Shown here piece after piece: positions 4,645 to 14,399 of a stretch of DNA of 55,973 bases. The DNA lies in the NCBI GenBank assembly GCA_025057645.1, contig JANXBJ010000017.1:1-55973 (forward strand). The letters are read 5' to 3'. Positions within the stretch are counted from its first letter, which is position 1. Every line of letters begins with the position of its first letter. The DNA comes from Anaerolineales bacterium (GTDB lineage: Bacteria > Chloroflexota > Anaerolineae > Anaerolineales > UBA4823). The notes beneath the pieces are model-generated. The model searched no databases. It was not told the DNA's origin and saw only the letters and a list, made by a program, of their open reading frames with translations. The translations under genes were made by a program, and so were the position numbers.

Positions 4645-4741
4645 TCGTGAGGGTTGTTAGCGAAGAGAAGAGAGAGCGCAGAGAGCTTCTTGAGAGAAGT
4701 GTTTTGAGGCAACGTAGATTCTAACCGTGAGGCAAAAGGCG

Positions 4742-6652
4742 ATGGCAGAATGGGAGTGTAGCTCCGCTGAACTTGAGCGAATGTGCACTTTGTTCTCGGC
4801 TCTGTTCAACCGTTTCCCGGCCGGTGGGGTTTTGGTGGACAAAGAAGGGCTGATCCGCGAAGCCAACCTGGCCTTTTGCAGCCTAATCGGGTGCGAGCCG
4901 AGCCAAGTGGTGGGGAAATCCATCCAAGATTTTCTCCACGAAGAGGATCGCTCTGATTTCCTCGCTCGTTGTCCTGCCCTGTTCCGTCAAGCTCAGGAGG
5001 AGATTCTCGAACTGCGCCTGAGGGGGACGCGTCAGCCGCCGCCTCGGGTGCGGTTGCAAGCCGGACGACTGAGCCTGTCCGGAGAGCCAAAGGGGACAGA
5101 AGAGGCGGACTACCTTCTGCTGACGTTTAGCGAGATCGACGAGCGCGGAGCGAGTGAGTTCGCTCTTCGGAACTTGCTTGGGGAATACGAAACGCTGTTC
5201 AACGGTCTTCAAGATGCGGTATTCCTCATCGAAGTGGGGGAGGAGGGCGAGTTCCGTTACCTGAGGACGAACGCGGCTTATCAGCAGAAGATAGGGGTTA
5301 CCTCGGAGCGGATTCGGGAGAGGACGCCTGCAGAAGTGCTAGGCCCCGAGTGGAGTGCAGAGATCCGGGATCACTGTCAGCGCTGCGTGGAGAGCGGTCG
5401 TCCGGTCGCCTATGAGCAAACCCTCGACTCGCCCGCCGGGCGGCGCACCTGGTTAACCACTCTCACCCCGGTCTGGAGCGCCGGGCGCATCAAATACCTC
5501 ATTGGGACGAGCATCGAGACCACCGAACAAAGAGCGACTCAGGAGGCTATCCGCCAAAACGGACAGCGCTACCGCATCCTGTTCGAAAACCTGATGGAAG
5601 GCTTTGCTCTTCATGAGATGATTTGGGATGAAAACGGCAAACCGCTTGATTACCGTTTCCTAGAAGTCAACCCTGCTTTTGAACGTCTGACCGGCCTAAA
5701 AGCGGAAGAAATTGTCGGCAAGACCGTCCTTCAGGTTTTGCCCGGCTTGGAACGAGTCTGGATCGAACGCTATGGCGAGGTGGCAGCGAGCGGGAAAGCG
5801 ATGATTTTCGAAGAGTACAGTGCCCCTCTGCAGAAGTGGTATGAAGTGCGCGCTTTTTCGCCCGAGCCGGGCTATTTCGCCACGGTTTTCATCGACATCA
5901 CCCAACGCAAACGCTGGCAAGAAGAGCGTGAGCAACTCATCCAGGACCTGCAGCGGAAAAACAGTGAACTGAGTCAGTTTACTTACACTGTCTCACACGA
6001 CCTCAGAGGTCCGCTGATCACCATCTTGGGATTTCTCACTTTTGTCGAGCAGAGCCTCGAGCAGGGGGATGTGGAACAGGCTAAAGCCGACCTGCAGCGC
6101 ATTCGTTTCGCTGCGGAAAAGATGCAAGCTCTGCTGGAGGGTCTACTGGAACTCTCGCGGGTTGGGCGGGTGCTCAACTCACTGGACGAATTTCCCTTTG
6201 GCGAGGTCGTCACGGAAGCGGCGCAATTGCTGTTGGGCAACATTCGTCATCAGGGACGCCCGATCGAATTTGAGATTGCCCCGGATTTGCCCGTTGTCCA
6301 AGGCGACCGTGCTCGTTTGTCTCAAGTGGTGCAAAACCTGCTCGATAACGCCCTCAAGTATATGGGAGAACAGCCCAATCCGCGCATCGAGATCGGGTGG
6401 CGCGATGCGCCCGGGGAATTTCTGTTCTATGTGCGGGATAACGGCATGGGGATTGATCCCAGCTATCAGGACAAGGTCTTTGGCTTGTTTGAGAAGCTCG
6501 ATCCGCGCACTGAAGGATATGGCATAGGCCTGGCATTGGTGAAGCGTATCGTCGAAGTGCACGGTGGGCGGGTGTGGGCCGAGTCCGAGGGGCGAGGCAA
6601 AGGGTGCACCTTTTGGTTCACTCTGCCTAAAGTTCATCGAAACTTGAGCTGA
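4742..6652 (+). CDS. Multi-PAS sensor histidine kinase
   Basis: This is a soluble kinase of about 636 residues. Three PAS-like sensor domains (about 15-135, 145-265 and 275-395) precede a HisKA dimerisation domain with the phospho-accepting histidine in SHDLRGPL (about residue 419). The HATPase domain has an N-box (QNLLDNALKY), G1 (DNGMGI) and G2 (GYGIGLALVK). No membrane segment is seen, so the signal is cytoplasmic. The start is uncertain: a GTG at 4727 would add five residues, while the ATG at 4742 has only AAGG close by. The receiver gene follows after 12 bp, so this kinase probably phosphorylates it. The arrangement resembles phytochrome-type kinase/Rcp1 pairs, but no chromophore-binding domain is present. 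Confidence 0.9.
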   Translation: MAEWECSSAELERMCTLFSALFNRFPAGGVLVDKEGLIREANLAFCSLIGCEPSQVVGKSIQDFLHEEDRSDFLARCPALFRQAQEEILELRLRGTRQPPPRVRLQAGRLSLSGEPKGTEEADYLLLTFSEIDERGASEFALRNLLGEYETLFNGLQDAVFLIEVGEEGEFRYLRTNAAYQQKIGVTSERIRERTPAEVLGPEWSAEIRDHCQRCVESGRPVAYEQTLDSPAGRRTWLTTLTPVWSAGRIKYLIGTSIETTEQRATQEAIRQNGQRYRILFENLMEGFALHEMIWDENGKPLDYRFLEVNPAFERLTGLKAEEIVGKTVLQVLPGLERVWIERYGEVAASGKAMIFEEYSAPLQKWYEVRAFSPEPGYFATVFIDITQRKRWQEEREQLIQDLQRKNSELSQFTYTVSHDLRGPLITILGFLTFVEQSLEQGDVEQAKADLQRIRFAAEKMQALLEGLLELSRVGRVLNSLDEFPFGEVVTEAAQLLLGNIRHQGRPIEFEIAPDLPVVQGDRARLSQVVQNLLDNALKYMGEQPNPRIEIGWRDAPGEFLFYVRDNGMGIDPSYQDKVFGLFEKLDPRTEGYGIGLALVKRIVEVHGGRVWAESEGRGKGCTFWFTLPKVHRNLS

Positions 6653-6664
6653 GTGTGAGGAGAC

Positions 6665-7123
6665 ATGGAGTTGAAGCAACAGCAACCCATTCGTATCTTG
6701 CTAGTAGAGGACAACCCCGACCACGCCGAGTTAATCCACCGTGTTTTCCGGTCGTGCTTAGTGGGCAACACCTTCTCTCATGTGGAAGATGGGGAGCAGG
6801 CCTTAGCCTACTTAGACCGGGAAGGAAAGTTTGCCGATGACCAACGCTACCCTTATCCCGATCTAATTTTGCTCGACCTGCGTTTGCCCAAGATGGATGG
6901 CTTTCAGTTGCTAGAACGGATCAAATCTTCTCCCTGCCATCGCCATATTGTTGTCATTGTTCTGAGCTCGAGTCGAGAGGAGGTAGACGTCCAGCGTGCC
7001 TACCAAGCGCACGCTAACAGCTACTTGGTCAAGCCTTTCTCTGTGGATGAAATGACGGAAGTTTTGCGCTATCTGGGTTTATACTGGTTGAAATGGAATG
7101 TGTATGCTAAAAGGAGGCCCTGA
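6665..7123 (+). CDS. Single-domain response regulator, Rcp1-like
   Basis: This 152-residue receiver domain has no output domain. The acidic pair ED (15-16), phospho-acceptor D71 in LILLDLRLPKMDG and conserved lysine in YLVKPFS are all present. The insertion after the DGEQALAYL helix (residues 52-64) is typical of Rcp1-type regulators that pair with PAS/GAF histidine kinases. GAGGAG lies just upstream of the ATG, and the gene is 12 bp after the kinase, so they form an operon. The output is likely protein-protein signalling, perhaps to the diguanylate cyclase downstream. Confidence 0.9.
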   Translation: MELKQQQPIRILLVEDNPDHAELIHRVFRSCLVGNTFSHVEDGEQALAYLDREGKFADDQRYPYPDLILLDLRLPKMDGFQLLERIKSSPCHRHIVVIVLSSSREEVDVQRAYQAHANSYLVKPFSVDEMTEVLRYLGLYWLKWNVYAKRRP

Positions 7124-7381
7124 TGCTCTAAGCGAGGAGGCGTTCAGCCATTGGTTTTCTCTCGCCCTAAAAGCCAGGGCTCAATGTCCTTATCCACCTT
7201 AGGGTTTAGAGAAGGCAGAGTATCAAATAGCTAAACTCAGCCTCATTGCCTCAATCGATAGTCACCGCTTTGCACTTGTCCACCGAGGAGGGTGTAAAAC
7301 TTGCATCGCATAGCACGTATCGACAGTTTTGAGTCTCGGTTTTAGGGTTCTTTGGGTTGATCGGATTTCAGGAGAGGTCTC

Positions 7382-9640
7382 ATGGCAAAACCCATCGTTC
7401 TCTTACTGGTAGAAGATGACCCCAATCATGCCGAACTCCTGCGTCGCAGCTTGGCCGGCCATTCCCGTCCCTTTGAATTGATTTGGGTGGATACAATTGC
7501 GGCGGCGCAGCGATGGCTGGGGCAGAACACCCCGGACTTGCTGCTCACCGACTTATACCTCCCCGATGGCAGCGGCAGGGCTTTTCTGCAGAATCATTCC
7601 AAGCCTTTGCCCTACCCGGTGATTGTGCAAACTGCGTTCGGTGATGAGCAGAAAGCGGTGGAAGTGATCAAAGCAGGCGCTTTCGATTATTTGCCCAAGC
7701 GCTTTGACCTCTTCCGTGAATTGCCTTACCTTCTTGAACGCGCCTTAGAGGAATGGCGTCACCAGCGCGAACGCCAAGAGATGGAAGCGCGCTTGCAGAC
7801 CGGCGAGTCGGTTTTCCGCGCCATATTTGAAAACGCTCCGGTGGGAGTGCTCTATTTTGACGAGAAAGGGGTGGTGCAGGCAGCCAATTCCTCTCTCGCC
7901 CGGATGTTAAGTCTCCCTAGGGAATCCCTGGTGGGGTTGGAATTGCTCCACGTGCCCTACGAACCTATTGTCGTATCGATCCAGAGAGTGCTCGCAGGAG
8001 AGAAAGTCTCTTGGGAGGTGGATTTCCGCTCTCGGCCTTATCAGCCTGGGCTGGCCGTCCGTGCTCAACTCTCCCCGGTGCAACTGCCCGATGGAAAGGT
8101 GATCGGCGGGGTAGCGATTTTAGAGGAGATTACAGCCGAGAGAGACGATCGGGATTTACACCAAGCCCTATATGAGATTGCCGACTTGGCCAACCGAGCA
8201 GAGGACGCTGCCACGCTCTACGCCGGCATTCATCAGATCGTACGCCGCATTTTGCCCGCCGAAAACTTCTATATTGCCCTGTGGGACAAGAGGACAAAGC
8301 GTCTTTGTTTTCCCTATTGGGTCGATCAGCATGAGCCTAATCCCGGCACGGTGCCGCTCGCCAAGGGCCTGACAGAGTATGTGCTCCAATCCGGACGGAC
8401 GCTGCTTGCTGAGAACGAGCTGTGCGAACAAATGGAGAAACGAGGGGAGATCGAACGCATTGCTGCCCCGAGCGCAGGCTGGTTGGGCGTCCCGCTCAAG
8501 GATCGTTCGGGTGCGGTGTTCGGGGCTGTGGTTGTCCAGTCCTATGATCCGCGGGTGCGCTACAACTTGCATCAGGCCGGGATCATGGAATACATTGCAG
8601 CTCAAATCGCTCAGGTGTTGCAACGCTTTCAAGCCGAGGAAGAGGAGCGTCGCCAACGCCAGATTGCCGAGGCGCTCCTAGAGGCCACGGCAGCCTTCTC
8701 GCAAAGCCTCGATCTGGAACGGGTCTTTGAGCGCATTCTCGCTCAACTTGATCACCTGAGCCCCTACACCCATTGCAGCCTCTGGCTGATTGAGGGAAAG
8801 TGGGCGCAGGTGGTGGCCGAGGCCGGCCGGCCGCTGCCTAAAACCGAAGAAGCGCACAAGCTGAGCTGGCAGGAATTGGACACCCTTTGGCAAATTTACT
8901 CGACTAAACTGCCCCTGTTCATCATAGATACGCAGGCTTACCCTCATTGGCATCTAATTCCCGGTTTGGAATGGGTGCGCACGTACCTAGGCTTGCCCCT
9001 CTCGGTAAAGGGGAGCGTGATCGGCTTTCTCAACCTCGGGTTTGAGACGGTGGTTGAGATCGACCCTGCCGATATCGGGCCCTTAGAGGCCTTTGCCAAC
9101 TTAGCCGCCCAAGCCATCGAAAACGCTCGCCTGTATCGACAAGCGCAAGAGCTGGCTATCCACGACGAGTTGACCTGCATCTACAACCGCCGCGGCTTGA
9201 AAATCCTTGCTTGGCGGGAGTTTGAGCGCGCTGTGCGCTATCAACGCCCGCTGAGCGTGCTCTTCGCCGATGTGGACGATTTCAAGGCGTTCAACGATCG
9301 ATACTCTTACACCCTTGGCGATCGAGTGCTAAAGGAGATCGCCCAGTGCCTGGTAAGCCATTTGCGCGAGATCGATCTTCCCGCCCGCTTTGGCGGAGAT
9401 GAATTCGTGGTCGTCCTACCCGAGACCAGCCGGGAGGAGGCTATAAGGGTCGTGCGGCGTTTGAACTCGCTTATCCGCCAAATCGCCCTTGACCACGAGG
9501 GGAAGCCACTCTCGATCTCGGTCACCTTTGGGTTGGCCGAACGTTTGGAGAGCGACTCCTCTTGGGAGGAGTTGCTCGAGCGGGCTGCGAATTCCTTGCG
9601 CCGCGCTAAGCGGGAAGGAGTGCCGCTGTTCGTTGTCTGA
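7382..9640 (+). CDS. Response-regulator diguanylate cyclase (REC-PAS-GAF-GAF-GGDEF)
   Basis: This 752-residue protein has a receiver (1-125, phospho-acceptor D57 in LLTDLYLPDGSG), a PAS domain (about 140-255), two GAF-type domains (about 265-425 and 430-590) and a C-terminal GGDEF domain (about 595-750). The catalytic signature GGDEF is intact at 671-675. An RxxD inhibitory site (REID, 662-665) lies the standard five residues before it, so the enzyme should make cyclic di-GMP and be product-inhibited. AGGAG precedes the ATG. The 258-bp gap after the receiver gene holds no gene and suggests a separate or relay-coupled transcript. No EAL or HD-GYP partner is in the window. Confidence 0.92.
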   Translation: MAKPIVLLLVEDDPNHAELLRRSLAGHSRPFELIWVDTIAAAQRWLGQNTPDLLLTDLYLPDGSGRAFLQNHSKPLPYPVIVQTAFGDEQKAVEVIKAGAFDYLPKRFDLFRELPYLLERALEEWRHQRERQEMEARLQTGESVFRAIFENAPVGVLYFDEKGVVQAANSSLARMLSLPRESLVGLELLHVPYEPIVVSIQRVLAGEKVSWEVDFRSRPYQPGLAVRAQLSPVQLPDGKVIGGVAILEEITAERDDRDLHQALYEIADLANRAEDAATLYAGIHQIVRRILPAENFYIALWDKRTKRLCFPYWVDQHEPNPGTVPLAKGLTEYVLQSGRTLLAENELCEQMEKRGEIERIAAPSAGWLGVPLKDRSGAVFGAVVVQSYDPRVRYNLHQAGIMEYIAAQIAQVLQRFQAEEEERRQRQIAEALLEATAAFSQSLDLERVFERILAQLDHLSPYTHCSLWLIEGKWAQVVAEAGRPLPKTEEAHKLSWQELDTLWQIYSTKLPLFIIDTQAYPHWHLIPGLEWVRTYLGLPLSVKGSVIGFLNLGFETVVEIDPADIGPLEAFANLAAQAIENARLYRQAQELAIHDELTCIYNRRGLKILAWREFERAVRYQRPLSVLFADVDDFKAFNDRYSYTLGDRVLKEIAQCLVSHLREIDLPARFGGDEFVVVLPETSREEAIRVVRRLNSLIRQIALDHEGKPLSISVTFGLAERLESDSSWEELLERAANSLRRAKREGVPLFVV

Positions 9641-9660
9641 AAGGAGAGCTGGAGAGAGGC

Positions 9661-9694
9661 AAAAATTCCTGTGGGCCGGCACGGAGGCCCACAG
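9661..9694 (-). terminator. Rho-independent terminator (minus strand)
   Basis: A perfect 9-bp stem, CTGTGGGCC at 9669-9677 and GGCCCACAG at 9686-9694, has an 8-nt loop. Read on the minus strand it is followed by GAATTTTT (9668-9661). It sits about 90 bp past the stop of the minus-strand peroxiredoxin-glutaredoxin gene and would end that transcript. Confidence 0.75.
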
Positions 9695-9780
9695 CTCACC
9701 GGCCCGTGGGGCAACGAGAGGAGAGCGCATCCGGGAATCGCTCCGATTTAGATGCCTGCGGAAGACACTAAGGCGAGGTC

Positions 9781-10566
9781 TCAAGGGGCGGGTATTCCCC
9801 GCAATGCCTCCTCTAATTCCTCGACATGAAAGTTGACAATCACCTTGCCGTTGATCAGAAACGTAGGGGTGGTCTCGTTGCCGTTGGCCCACTGGCGCAC
9901 CTGCGCCGCCGCTGCACGGTCGCGCGAAATATCGACCTCCACGAAAGGAATTTTCTTCTCATTGAGATAGGCCCGGGCGCGCCGACAAGCTGGGCACCAG
10001 GGCGTGCAATACATCACCACTTGCGCAGCCGGAGAGGGGGGCTCGGCTGCCGCTGCGGTTTGTTGCTGGCGCTGCAAGAACTGGCGGTCCTTTTCGGCCA
10101 GCTCCGGTTCGAGCTTATATAACTCGGCAAACAACACTTCATTATCCGGCTGGTCGTCAATCGGATGCACGTCCACATAGCGGATCACTCCCCGTTTGTC
10201 AATGACGAAGATCGCCCGCTCGCTGTAGCCCTCGGGGCGTAGCACACCGTAGAGCTGGGCAACCCGACCATGGGGGAAGAAATCGCTCAGGAGCGGGAAG
10301 GTGATGCCGCCGAGACTTTCCGCCCATGCATAGAGGCAATCGCTGCTGTCCACGCTAATACCCAGAACCTGGGTATCCATCCGCTCAAAGCGGTCGAGCG
10401 CCGCCTGATAGGATGGGATTTGGCTGCTTCATATTGGCGTCCAGGCCAGGGGGAAGAAGGCCAAGACCACGTTCTTCTTTCCCCGGAATTCGCTCAATCG
10501 GACGGGGCGCTTGCGGTGGTCGAGAAGCGTGAAATCGGGCGCCAATTGTCCAACAGATAAGGCCAT
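9781..10566 (-). CDS. Selenocysteine-containing peroxiredoxin-glutaredoxin fusion (UGA at codon 46)
   Basis: Read from the ATG at 10566, the frame stays open for 261 residues apart from one TGA at 10431-10429 (codon 46). Residues 1-165 are a peroxiredoxin: APDFTLLD at 9-16, FFPLAWTPI before the UGA, SSQIPSYQAALDRF after it, then ISVDSSDC and FPLLSDF. Family members have the peroxidatic cysteine exactly at the UGA position (P-T-x-C type active site). Residues 180-261 are a glutaredoxin with CPAC at 191-194 and TTPTFLING. The enzyme should reduce peroxides using Sec46, recycled by the fused glutaredoxin; C77 could resolve. A stem GCAGCC/GGCGGC (five of six pairs, 10427-10422 with 10405-10400) begins one base past the UGA plus A, where bacterial SECIS hairpins lie. 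A recent nonsense mutation is the main alternative. Confidence 0.85.
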
Positions 10567-10613
10567 ACCCCTTTCCTTTCTAGCGATCCAACTTCGCTCG
10601 GTGATGCCCGTAT

Positions 10614-10642
10614 AGTATAAATCGGCTCGAATTTTCTGACAA
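10614..10642 (-). promoter_or_regulatory. Sigma-70-type promoter of the selenoperoxiredoxin gene
   Basis: On the minus strand, TTGTCA (10642-10637) and TATACT (10619-10614) are separated by exactly 17 bp. The predicted start near 10607 leaves a leader of about 40 nt with AAGGAAAGGGG before the ATG at 10566. This supports translation from 10566, upstream of the UGA, and not from the internal ATG at 10380. Confidence 0.7.
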
Positions 10643-10866
10643 CTCCCTCGGATTGAAAATGAGAGCTTTTGAGAGCTGTTCTAATCAGCTTGTGCAACTC
10701 CAACGTGATTACGGGTATAGAAGGCCATACCTTGGATTTAGGGTCGCCATCGCCAGAAGAGCGTTCGGAGCTGGAAAATTGCGCCATTATGCGGGGCGAA
10801 AAGGGGATAAAATACAAGTGACTGAGGCTAGCAATCGTTGCGCTCAGCTCGGAAAAGGGAGCAAAA

Positions 10867-11742
10867 ATGACACCCGACTTGACCCCTCACTTTCTCGAAT
10901 TGATTCGTTTGGCGGCCACGGATTTACCCCCGGACGTAGAGGCAGCTTTGCAGCGAGCATTGGACCAGGAGGAGCCCGGATCGGCTGCGTATGGGGCTTT
11001 GGCGACTATCCTGAAGAACGTGGAACTTTCGCGCGCCAACCAAACCCCAATCTGTCAGGACACCGGCACGCCCATCTTTTACGTCTCTCATCCCGAAGGC
11101 TGGTCGACGCGCAAGCTGCGCCAACAGATCGAGACGGCTGTCGTCCAGGCCACCCAAAAGTCTTACTTGCGCCCGAACTCGGTCGACGCGCTGAGCGGCA
11201 AAAATAGCGGCAACAACTTAGGGGGTCATTACTTTCCCACCATCCATTTTGAAGAAGTGGAGGGAGAGGTCCTGACCGTAGAACTCATGCTAAAGGGGGG
11301 TGGCTGTGAAAACGTCGGCGCTCAGTATTCCTTGCCCTACGAGGCGCTGAAAGCCGGGCGCGATTTGGAAGGCGTGCGCCGAGTGGTCTTGGATGCTGTC
11401 TATCGGGCGCAAGGACAAGGCTGTGCGCCGGGCATTCTAGGGGTTGCCATTGGCGGCGACCGCGGCTCAGGCTACTATGCTTCCAAAGAGGTGCTCTTCC
11501 GCCGTCTGGACGAGGAGAACGACAACCCCGAACTGGCGCAGTTAGAAAAACGCCTGACCGAAGAAGCCAACCGATTGGGCATCGGCCCGATGGGCTTCGG
11601 CGGCAGGACCACCGTGCTGGGGACAAAGATCACCGCTCTACACCGTTTGCCGGCAAGCTACTTCGTCACCGTCTCGTATATGTGTTGGGCATACCGCCGC
11701 CGCCGCATGATCTGGCAGAACGGCAGGGTGAGCTTTGAGTGA
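10867..11742 (+). CDS. Class I fumarate hydratase, alpha (N-terminal) subunit
   Basis: This 291-residue protein is the iron-sulphur half of a two-subunit class I fumarase or L-tartrate dehydratase-type enzyme. Three cysteines for the [4Fe-4S] cluster are visible: C63 in CQDTG, C147 in GGGCEN and C186 in GQGCAPG. The GKNSGNN motif (111-117) and GGDR also fit. With the beta subunit downstream it should interconvert fumarate and malate in the TCA cycle. The ATG at 10867 follows GGGAG. The gap of about 210 bp to the beta subunit is unusually long for this pair and is filled with decayed repeats. Fumarase is more likely than tartrate dehydratase because no tartrate gene is nearby. Confidence 0.88.
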   Translation: MTPDLTPHFLELIRLAATDLPPDVEAALQRALDQEEPGSAAYGALATILKNVELSRANQTPICQDTGTPIFYVSHPEGWSTRKLRQQIETAVVQATQKSYLRPNSVDALSGKNSGNNLGGHYFPTIHFEEVEGEVLTVELMLKGGGCENVGAQYSLPYEALKAGRDLEGVRRVVLDAVYRAQGQGCAPGILGVAIGGDRGSGYYASKEVLFRRLDEENDNPELAQLEKRLTEEANRLGIGPMGFGGRTTVLGTKITALHRLPASYFVTVSYMCWAYRRRRMIWQNGRVSFE

Positions 11743-11953
11743 AAAACCGAGACACGCAGAGACTGAAGAACAGGAAGCCAGGCAGAGGGATGCAGAACAC
11801 GCAAAGAAATAACCGAGGCTCGTCCCGTAGATTTCTCAGCGGTGAAAATGAAACCGGACGGAGAGTTCACACGCAGGTCGTAAGAACACAAAGGAGAAAA
11901 AGGACCTCGGTGTCCTTGGACTCTTTACGGCGACAATCCAGAAGGAGAAAGCC
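11743..11953. repeat. Decayed copy of the ACACAAAG hairpin repeat between fumarase subunits
   Basis: This spacer contains GAGACACGCAGAGACTGAAG near 11750 and AACACGCAAAGAAA near 11790. Near 11884 it has AACACAAAGGAGAAAAAGGA followed by GGTGTCCTTGGACTC. These resemble degraded units of the array at 2880-3250. It probably inserted between the two subunit genes. The ribosome-binding site AGAAGGAGAAAG for the beta subunit lies at the right edge. Confidence 0.5.
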
Positions 11954-12580
11954 ATGCGCCCAATTACCATCCCGATTTCGGATGAGGTGATCCGCAGCCT
12001 CAAGGTTGGTGACCCGGTCTCGCTCAACGGGGTGATGGTCACCGGGCGAGATGCTGTGCACAAGTGGTTGTTCGAAACCTTCATTGCTAAGACTCGCTTG
12101 CCCCAAGGCGATGATCTCGAGGTTTATGAGGCGATCAAGCCGTTGCTCAACGGCGGGGTGATTTACCACTGTGGGCCGGTGGTGGCAGGCTTGGACACCA
12201 AAGAGTACCGCTTTGTGGCTGCCGGGCCGACGACCAGCTCGCGCGAGGAACCCTATCAAGGGGAGGTCATGCGCCATTTCAACCTCAAAGGGGTGGTCGG
12301 AAAGGGAGGCATGGGGGCAAAGACGCTGCAGGCCTGTCAGGAGGTGCCGGGCGTCTACTTCCACACTATCGGCGGCGCTGCCTCCTGGCTTGCTCAGTCG
12401 GTGCAGCGGGTGTTCGGTGTATATAAGCTGGAATTTGGTGTCCCCGAGGCGATGTGGGTGATTGAAGTCAGAGATTTCCCCGCCGTGGTGACCATGGATG
12501 CGCACGGTCAAAGCCAACATGCCGAGATCGAGCAACGGTCGAGACGGGTGTTAGAGCAATTAATTGGATTGGAGACCTAG
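11954..12580 (+). CDS. Class I fumarate hydratase, beta (C-terminal) subunit
   Basis: This 208-residue protein supplies the second half of the class I fumarase. Family features include the N-terminal LKVGDPVSLNGVMVTGRDAVH, GPVVAGLDTKEYRFVAAGPTTSSRE, and VVGKGGMG near residue 117. It has no cluster cysteines, as expected for this subunit. The ATG at 11954 has a good AAGGAG. It is co-oriented with the alpha subunit, and the two are probably co-transcribed despite the repeat-filled spacer. No terminator is seen in that spacer. A hairpin GGGG/CCCC at 12585-12597 follows the stop but lacks a T-run. Confidence 0.88.
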   Translation: MRPITIPISDEVIRSLKVGDPVSLNGVMVTGRDAVHKWLFETFIAKTRLPQGDDLEVYEAIKPLLNGGVIYHCGPVVAGLDTKEYRFVAAGPTTSSREEPYQGEVMRHFNLKGVVGKGGMGAKTLQACQEVPGVYFHTIGGAASWLAQSVQRVFGVYKLEFGVPEAMWVIEVRDFPAVVTMDAHGQSQHAEIEQRSRRVLEQLIGLET

Positions 12581-12848
12581 TCATGGGGCGAAACCCCTCT
12601 CCCACGCTATCTCTCAGGAGGATGTCTTCCAATGGGGGCCTCCCTTTTCTCGTGGCGCGCTCGTTTTGGGGACGAAAGGGTAGCTGCTCAAGGCTCACAG
12701 CTAGACCCGACACGCTGAAGTCAGGCGCTCTCTCCCGCCGGCTTCAATGGCGCTCGGGCTGCATGCTGAGTTCAAGCCGTGACGGTCGAAGAGACGGCGG
12801 AACGGCTAAACGCCCGGGGAGAACGGGACTTCCCATGGTAGGCTTAGT

Positions 12849-14399
12849 ATGCTAGCGCGGGTCTACTCGTGTGCCATGATCGGCCTGGACGGGGTGATCG
12901 TCGAGGTCGAAGTGGATACGGCGCAAGGGCTGCCAGCGATGGTGATCGTCGGTCTGCCCGATGCAGCCGTGCAAGAGAGCCGTGAGCGGGTTCAGGCGGC
13001 GATTAAGAACGCTGGCTTGCGCTATCCGCGTGGGCGGTTGGTGGTCAACCTGGCGCCGGCTACGGTGCGCAAAGAAGGTCCGGCGTACGACCTGCCGATC
13101 GCTCTGGGGGTGCTGGCCTGCAGCGGGCAAATTCCCCAAGAGAGCGTCGAAGGTGCGCTTGTGGTCGGGGAGTTGTCCTTGGACGGCAAGGTGCGCCATA
13201 CGCGCGGCGTGCTGCCTATGGCGGCCATTGCCCGCCAACAGGGCTTTCGGCGCATTTATGTCCCTGCCGCCGATGCCGCCGAGGCTGCTTTAGTGCCGGA
13301 TTTGGAAGTGCTGGCCGTAGAGAGCCTGGCCGAGTTGGTCGCCCACCTCTGCGGGCAAAAGGCGCTAAAACCCTACCCTCACGTAGACCTACAGGCTCTC
13401 CCTGCGGTGGGACAGGTTGACTTCCGCGAGATCAAAGGACAGGAGCACGTCAAGCGCGCCCTCGAGGTGGCTGCAGCCGGCGGACACAACGTGCTGATGA
13501 TCGGACCGCCCGGCGCCGGCAAGACCTTGTTGGCGCGTGCCCTGCCCGGCATCCTGCCCCGGATGACGCTCGAGGAGGCCCTAGACGTAACGCGCATCTA
13601 CTCGGTGGCCGATCAGCTCCCTGCCGATGCTCCTTTGGTGCGCATGCGCCCCTTTCGCGCCCCTCATCACACCATCAGTCATGCCGGTTTGGTCGGTGGG
13701 GGCAATTGGCCTCATCCGGGCGAGATTTCGCTGGCCCACCGCGGTGTGCTCTTCTTGGACGAGTTGCCCGAATTTAGCCCGCGCACCCTAGAAGTGTTAC
13801 GTCAACCCCTAGAGGATAAAGTAGTAACTATCAGCCGTGCCCAAGGCTCATTGACCTTCCCGGCTAACTTTCAACTGGTGGCCGCAATGAACCCTTGCCC
13901 CTGTGGTTACTACGGCGATCCCCAAAAACCCTGCACGTGCTCTTCCCAAATGGTCACCCGCTATCAGAAGCGCATCTCCGGGCCGCTGCTCGATCGTATT
14001 GACATCCATGTCGAAGTACCTCGGGTGGAAGTCGAGAAATTAAGCGACGACCGCCTCGGCGAGCCCTCGGCGGTCATCCAACAGCGGGTAGAAATGGCCC
14101 GTCAACGCCAGCGTCGGCGATTCGAGAGCCTCAGGACGGCTGAAGAGGAGCACGAGTTAACTTCGGTGATCACTTGTAACGCCGACATGAGTGCCGCCCA
14201 AGTGCGCCAGGCCTGTGCTTTGGATGAAAATGGCAAAACGCTAATGCGCATGGCTATCACCCGTCTGCAGCTTTCGGCGCGGGCTTACCACCGTGTGTTG
14301 AAGGTCGCCCGTACTATTGCAGACTTGGAAGGGAGTGAGACAATTCAGGTGCCTCATCTCGCCGAGGCTTTGCAATATCGTCCGAAGATGGAGCTCTAG
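12849..14399 (+). CDS. YifB/ComM family Mg-chelatase-like AAA+ ATPase
   Basis: This 516-residue protein is of normal length for the family. It has an N-terminal Lon-type S5-like domain (1-165), then an AAA+ module with Walker A GPPGAGKT (219-226), Walker B GVLFLDELPEF, and a CPCGYYGD...CTCS cysteine cluster typical of YifB/ComM. The C-terminal lid domain carries the LSARAYHRVLKVARTIADLEG signature. ComM is a branch-migration helicase that aids integration of DNA in natural transformation, which fits a ComEC gene further along the window. The start at 12849 has GGTAGG upstream. The 268 bp before it hold no gene. Confidence 0.92.
   Translation: MLARVYSCAMIGLDGVIVEVEVDTAQGLPAMVIVGLPDAAVQESRERVQAAIKNAGLRYPRGRLVVNLAPATVRKEGPAYDLPIALGVLACSGQIPQESVEGALVVGELSLDGKVRHTRGVLPMAAIARQQGFRRIYVPAADAAEAALVPDLEVLAVESLAELVAHLCGQKALKPYPHVDLQALPAVGQVDFREIKGQEHVKRALEVAAAGGHNVLMIGPPGAGKTLLARALPGILPRMTLEEALDVTRIYSVADQLPADAPLVRMRPFRAPHHTISHAGLVGGGNWPHPGEISLAHRGVLFLDELPEFSPRTLEVLRQPLEDKVVTISRAQGSLTFPANFQLVAAMNPCPCGYYGDPQKPCTCSSQMVTRYQKRISGPLLDRIDIHVEVPRVEVEKLSDDRLGEPSAVIQQRVEMARQRQRRRFESLRTAEEEHELTSVITCNADMSAAQVRQACALDENGKTLMRMAITRLQLSARAYHRVLKVARTIADLEGSETIQVPHLAEALQYRPKMEL

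Follow-up and report, generated by a model that had tools for sequence, protein, structure and literature searches.

Selenocysteine (Sec) peroxiredoxins and Cys-type hybrids of a peroxiredoxin (Prx) with a glutaredoxin (Grx) are already known. The PGdx protein of Haemophilus influenzae uses Cys, and PrxU of Eubacterium acidaminophilum is an enzyme with Sec as its peroxidatic residue. According to the available text of PMC1361801, H. influenzae PGdx is a peroxidase in which Prx and Grx form one chain and whose activity is glutathione-dependent. PMC13188914, an inventory of prokaryotic selenoproteins, has an entry ‘Peroxiredoxin, TxxU’ and refers to the enzyme of E. acidaminophilum. In Mycobacterium tuberculosis, the oxidised form of AhpE (AhpE-SOH) is reduced by mycoredoxin-1, either directly or via mycothiol, as described in the accessible text of PMC4360819.

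The gene considered here lies in a window of 55,973 nucleotides, which is an entire contig of an Anaerolineales bacterium genome (3.1 Mb, 63 contigs, completeness 95.75%). It encodes a Prx–Grx fusion, and its features are collected in Table 1. The original prediction described a frame of 262 codons with a single internal TGA at codon 46, followed by 215 residues up to a normal stop. This description is accurate; the count includes the stop, which is also a TGA, and the protein has 261 residues. The frame is far beyond chance, because TGA-bearing homologues keep it. The internal TGA had been placed at the peroxidatic Cys site directly after the residues TP; the site was identified correctly, but the codon stands one residue later, in the sequence TP-I-U. 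Codon 46 occupies the peroxidatic place of the PxxxTxxC motif, with ‘plawtpic’ aligned over ‘plaftgic’ of AhpE. As had been anticipated for an automated caller, an ordinary list of open reading frames (ORFs) gives a frame of 199 aa starting at ATG 10380, in which the active site is lost. Pfam recognises AhpC-TSA at residues 5–131 (4.7e-39) and Glutaredoxin at residues 183–243 (5.7e-16); the second domain does possess the expected CPAC site, within a WCPAC motif. A promoter with 17-bp spacing and a terminator had been taken as signs of expression. Both sites exist, but their counts are no higher than chance gives (one promoter match found versus 0.7 expected, two terminator-like sites versus 1.3), so they add little. 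Among the neighbours (window positions 4727–14399), the divergent side contains genes for parts of fumarate hydratase, for a small protein that matches nothing in Pfam and for a Mg-chelatase (ChlI) protein. A histidine kinase, a response regulator and a protein of the GGDEF/PAS/GAF kind are encoded on the opposite side. The eight neighbouring proteins scanned do not make up an antioxidant operon.

Table 1. Positions of the Prx–Grx fusion gene, its functional sites and the flanking signals in the window.
Feature	Position	Strand	Details and basis
Prx–Grx fusion CDS	9781..10566	(-)	261 residues, Sec at 46; TGA stop 9783-9781
In-frame UGA, Sec46, peroxidatic residue of PLAWTPIU (predicted)	10429..10431	(-)	TGA in 69/73, Cys in 4/73 fusion rows
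Prx domain (AhpC-TSA, AhpE-like)	10174..10554	(-)	Pfam, sequence and fold matches
SECIS-type hairpin (lower stem, upper stem with bulges, small loop at the apex)	10377..10419	(-)	Folding analyses
Cys77 codon, candidate second redox Cys of Prx domain	10336..10338	(-)	Cys in 67/73 fusions
Grx domain	9838..10020	(-)	Pfam and predicted fold
CPAC active site of Grx domain (Cys191, Cys194)	9985..9996	(-)	Both Cys in 73/73 fusions
Cys187 codon, third invariant Cys of Grx domain	10006..10008	(-)	73/73 fusions
Purine-rich ribosome-binding-like stretch before ATG 10566	10568..10579	(-)	Sequence, by eye
Sigma-70-like promoter match TTGTCA-17-TATACT	10614..10642	(-)	Count not above chance
Terminator-like hairpin followed by T-run	9669..9694	(-)	Count not above chance

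The fusion has many relatives. In a sample of 396 genomes of the class, 71 genomes contain a match at E ≤ 1e-30; in 33 of the 396 the match extends to residue 201 or beyond and contains a single TGA as its only stop, the remaining matches being mostly Prx-only or interrupted by further stops. Thirty of these 33 fusions were fetched; codon 46 is TGA in every one. A scan of named genomes, limited to the best 80 of at least 584 relatives, yielded 43 fusions, 39 with TGA and four with Cys (L070, L077, L080 and L081); one fusion row (L094) ends at a contig edge. Of the other 37 named rows, 35 were used as solo rows without Grx (23 with TGA and 12 with Cys), while L120 and L122 were excluded. Pooling the 30 class-sample and 43 named fusions gives 73 rows, 69 of them different. 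It had been proposed that homologues be compared at codon 46; among the matches listed, this codon is TGA in 69 of the 73 fusion rows and Cys in the other four. Bacterial selenoproteins carry a UGA in frame at a redox position where certain orthologues have Cys, and the fusions show this pattern. On a maximum-likelihood tree, the Cys fusions require two changes, each among Sec neighbours. Among the best 80 of at least 584 relatives, 41 of the 43 named fusions bear Chloroflexota names; the remaining two come from bins that carry the labels Actinobacteria (L095) and Acidobacteria (L096) and could be binning errors. Two named fusions carry no metagenome-bin label: those of Ornatilinea apprima P3M-1 (L071) and of Leptolinea sp. 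HRD-7 (L082), the latter a complete genome.

The nearest relative among the matches listed, from Anaerolineales bacterium SKW59 (L056), is 91% identical. The two genes differ by 20 synonymous and four nonsynonymous changes in codons 1–45 and by 98 and 20, respectively, from codon 47 to the end; within the 19 codons of the hairpin there are four synonymous changes and no nonsynonymous ones, and the TGA is kept. Purifying selection in both halves agrees with the original view of a gene under selection and argues against both a dead gene and an internal start.

The Prx domain had been described as AhpE-like, and comparisons of both sequence and fold lead to the same family. The seven best sequence matches among solved structures are M. 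tuberculosis AhpE, as named by the entries, and so are the 12 best PDB fold matches. The predicted fold is of high quality (mean pLDDT 92.5, pTM 0.81), and its best match reaches a TM of 0.95 by the length of the target, AhpE; in the AhpE fold matches the Prx domain is 41–42% identical to AhpE (Rv2238c). Of the 73 fusion rows, 68 were aligned (all but four repeats and the row ending at a contig edge), and residues P39, T43, 46 and R117 do not vary among them; we take these residues to be the catalytic Pro, Thr, Cys/Sec and Arg of an AhpE-type peroxiredoxin. Cys187, Cys191 and Cys194 occur in all 73 fusions. Cys77 is found in 67 of the 73 fusions, being absent from six, and in three of the 23 solo Sec Prx and three of the 12 solo Cys Prx; with this residue in most fusions, the domain is AhpE-like rather than a 1-Cys AhpE. 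AhpE uses Cys and, according to the available text of PMC8945050, has a single one, whereas the window protein has Sec and the additional Cys77. The reductants of AhpE are also separate and tied to mycothiol, while the window protein carries Grx on the same chain.

The hybrid Prx5 (PDB 1nm3), which represents PGdx, shares the order of Prx then Grx in one chain and is among the 50 fold matches listed; by its PDB title it is of the Prx5 type, in contrast to the AhpE-like domain of the window protein. With PrxU (NF040737) the window protein shares Sec as the peroxidatic residue, but it adds a Grx domain and scores below the curated cut-off (62.8 versus 270 bits). HUGP/GUXX-star (NF045501), which its name describes as a selenoprotein fusion including a Grx-like part, matched only residues 175–246, at 37.1 bits against a cut-off of 325. 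None of the best 25 of 31 matching NCBIfam models reached its curated cut-off. Related putative Sec proteins are solo AhpE-like peroxiredoxins that share the TGA codon but lack a Grx domain (23 rows, L098-L106, L108-L119, L126 and L127), labelled Acidobacteria, Bacillota, Eremiobacterota, Deltaproteobacteria, Sulfobacillus and others; 20 of the 23 have a TPxU site. In a plasmid search, the match covered 80% or more of the query in seven of 411 records. The two alphaproteobacterial plasmids opened (L136, L137) were rejected as fusions; in both, a Cys-type Prx gene adjoins a separate gene for a WCGxT glutaredoxin, the two corresponding to the halves of the fusion.

The genome that bears the window encodes the machinery for Sec incorporation. 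The presence of selA, selB, tRNA-Sec and selD had been named as a check on the prediction, and all four are there: selA (551.7 bits), selB (374.9 bits), selD (369.4 bits) and a tRNA-Sec with anticodon TCA (75.5 bits), each over its cut-off. The selD gene (G000:C33:128059-128991 (+), L024) carries an in-frame TGA near its own start, as is usual in Sec-type selD genes. In the class sample, selB was detected in 30 of the 33 genomes with the TGA fusion, with no match in G049, G251 and G292. A check of named relatives and doubtful cases covered 12 genomes. On a looser look, G049 contains a selB fragment at a contig edge, and G251 and G292 (completeness 85% and 70%) gave no convincing selB. Among five named genomes with a Sec fusion, three (L071, L082 and L096) have selB over the cut-off, and L056 and L095 have partial matches only (158.8 and 143.6 bits). 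No selB match in the genomes of the Cys fusions L077, L080 and L081 exceeds the cut-off (best 99.0 bits, 103.7 bits and none); L070 has a Cys fusion despite selB over the cut-off in its genome, and a Sec form adjoins it on the tree. Since selB is present in 313 of the 396 class genomes, this agreement is weak evidence, and co-occurrence with selB was dropped as a strong argument.

A hairpin-forming sequence had been reported to start just after the UGA. Such a hairpin exists, but it begins about 12 nt downstream. In the window gene its energy is −20.3 kcal/mol (z −2.12; three of 200 dinucleotide shuffles were as good), and in the minimum free energy (MFE) fold the apical loop is GCUC, about 29 nt after the UGA. 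The available text of PMC13188914 gives, as limits for a bacterial SECIS, a loop of 3–9 nt with G in its first two bases, a distance of 16–37 nt from the UGA, an upper stem of 4–16 bp and an MFE of at most −7.5; the window hairpin lies inside these published limits of loop, spacing and energy, and its upper stem is bulged. When loops of 3–14 nt are allowed, all 69 Sec fusions fall in the distance range and 56 have the G. Since a loop at a suitable distance is likewise found in 14 of the 16 Cys rows, and the G in ten of the 16, hairpin geometry was dropped as a test for Sec.

The strength of folding proved more discriminating. For each gene, the fold of the 57 nt that follow codon 46 was compared with versions in which the synonymous codons of the gene had been shuffled. 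The mean z was −2.72 for the 69 Sec fusions (69/69 below zero, 67/69 below −1) and +0.16 for the four Cys fusions (two below zero, none below −1); for solo Prx it was −2.43 with Sec (23/23 below zero) and +0.31 with Cys (4/12 below zero). For the downstream signal on which the original prediction had advised a SECIS check, these comparisons show extra folding after the codon in the Sec forms, absent from the four Cys fusions. The Mann–Whitney p value for Sec versus Cys (8e-10) is too small, because the rows are related and four proteins are present twice. In the first 29 fusions (mean z −2.75, 29/29 below zero), a profile along the genes had its deepest trough by far right after the UGA, where the mean z lies between −2.6 and −2.8 as long as the folded segment is shifted by no more than two codons in either direction. 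The signal fades over the next codons on either side. At eight or more codons upstream the mean stays between −0.51 and −0.03, and at 20 or more downstream between −1.05 and +0.51.

RNAalifold placed a hairpin at columns 56–74 of a 75-nt alignment. It was set aside, since the profile of the 29 genes puts the folding right after the UGA, and a consensus hairpin was drawn instead from mean pair probabilities. In this structure 75.4% of cells are paired versus 70.0% in shuffled sequences (0/500), and the covariation score is 0.195 versus 0.137 (0/500); being drawn from the same sequences that were later scored, the hairpin makes these counts lean towards it. Slid versions were lower (27.2–50.2% paired). 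Pairs changed on both sides were not above the shuffles (7 versus 6.1, 181/500), and further pair types in the hairpin were only mildly so (21 versus 18.0, 32/500).

Judged by these comparisons, the UGA at codon 46 almost certainly inserts Sec at the active site. The claim of a probable selenoprotein with UGA in place of the peroxidatic Cys is supported by the machinery, the conservation of TGA and the Sec-specific folding. Two explanations would dispense with Sec. One is a nonsense mutation or a sequencing error in a Cys-type Prx–Grx gene, with the 199-aa ORF as the remnant, and the plain ORF list does show only this shorter frame. However, TGA recurs in 69 of the 73 fusion rows, in many assemblies and down to about 50% identity, and selection against nonsynonymous change is visible on both sides of the codon relative to L056; conservation, folding and selection together indicate a translated selenoprotein gene, and a nonsense mutation or error has next to no probability. 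The other is decoding of UGA as a different amino acid, by a reassigned code or near-cognate readthrough. A frame that is open under a changed code does not prove Sec, but the same gene ends in TGA, the alternative residue at codon 46 is Cys, tRNA-Sec and the selA, selB and selD genes are present, and the extra folding tracks TGA and not Cys. Such decoding is very improbable. The best explanation is very probably a selenoprotein peroxidase in which codon 46 is decoded as Sec and Sec46 would be resolved by a thiol of the same chain.

In a working scheme of this selenoperoxidase, SelB and tRNA-Sec, together with the hairpin after the UGA, would decode codon 46 as Sec, which the comparative evidence strongly favours. 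By analogy with the family, the selenolate in the AhpE-like domain, surrounded by Pro39, Thr43 and Arg117, would reduce peroxide and become a selenenic acid. This would most likely be resolved by Cys77 with formation of a Se–S bond or, alternatively, directly by Cys191 of the Grx domain. The Cys191/Cys194 pair would end as a disulfide, to be re-reduced by a thioredoxin-type or flavoprotein reductase. The relay from Sec46 to Cys77 (or Cys191) and on to Cys191/Cys194 is proposed because the cysteines are conserved and markers of thiol synthesis were not found. In the 95.75% complete genome there is no match to the glutathione markers GCS2 and Glu_cys_ligase or to the bacillithiol marker BshC, and none over the cut-off to the mycothiol marker MshC; a match of 225.1 bits to MshC (cut-off 485.1) was set aside as a probable relative of cysteinyl-tRNA synthetase. 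A route without a low-molecular-weight thiol is therefore favoured, though the cell may also import glutathione. In effect the AhpE and mycoredoxin pair would be combined in one chain and S exchanged for Se, and the enzyme would probably protect the cell from H2O2 or lipid peroxides. Recycling of Sec46 within one chain is plausible.

The selenoprotein might instead have its Sec46 recycled by another thiol, with Grx serving clients of its own or a low-molecular-weight thiol. The 23 solo Sec Prx from several phyla suggest that such a Prx can work without Grx. In a quick Prx-domain tree, which has long branches and weak support, the fusions nevertheless fall on one side of a branch (SH-aLRT 80). 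The invariance of the three Grx cysteines, the neighbouring Prx and Grx genes on the two plasmids opened and the lack of thiol markers speak in the same direction, as do, in the available texts, the reduction of AhpE by mycoredoxin-1 (PMC4360819) and the peroxidase activity of PGdx with its identical domain order (PMC1361801); recycling by another thiol is accordingly rather unlikely. It is more doubtful still that the protein acts mainly as a peroxide sensor rather than a scavenger, with the oxidation of Sec46 relayed by the Grx domain to clients. Grx domains can hand disulfides on, and no antioxidant operon surrounds the gene among the eight proteins scanned, both of which would suit a sensor; yet no client is known, and the Prx–Grx hybrid that has been studied scavenges peroxide, as the available text of PMC1361801 reports. 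Returning to same-chain resolution of Sec46, it may be proposed tentatively, at somewhat less than even probability, that the fusions form a distinct family of self-contained selenoperoxidases, in which electrons pass from Cys191/Cys194 of Grx via Cys77 to Sec46 and peroxide with no low-molecular-weight thiol, and which is typical of Anaerolineae and rare elsewhere. In this reading Cys77, which goes with the fusion and is rare in the solo Sec kin, looks as if it had coevolved with the attached reductase.

The genome contains two more peroxiredoxin genes with an in-frame TGA. L003 (G000:C55:60756-61238 (-)) is of the UxxC type, with the sequence RGFVUPFC and z −1.18 for folding after the TGA (39 of 300 shuffles as low). 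L005 (G000:C16:2608-3021 (+)) has the TGA at the peroxidatic site, FYPGDFTFVU; the 57 nt that follow show no additional folding (z 0.06), so its signal is elsewhere or the case for Sec is weaker.

A Sec-containing Prx–Grx fusion is absent from Table 1 of the 2026 inventory of 119 prokaryotic selenoprotein families (PMC13188914), where it would fall under ‘Peroxiredoxin, TxxU’, and no description of one was found among the open-licence titles and abstract openings listed. The available part of PMC2398784 reports fusions of Prx to a PP2C-type domain and of Prx-like 3 to a CxxC-bearing ‘Unknown_3’; judged from that part, the latter may be a forerunner of the fusion described here. The gene adds a Prx–Grx architecture with Sec to the selenoproteins, and the design shared by its relatives suggests a family of selenium enzymes that has been overlooked. 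One and the same fusion occurs as matched Sec and Cys orthologues, with one Cys clade in genomes that have no selB over the cut-off, and these offer a probe of the benefit of selenium and of the effect of a built-in reductase on a peroxidase. Since the ordinary ORF call loses the active site, an antioxidant enzyme may be missing from the gene catalogues of a large group of mostly anaerobic bacteria.
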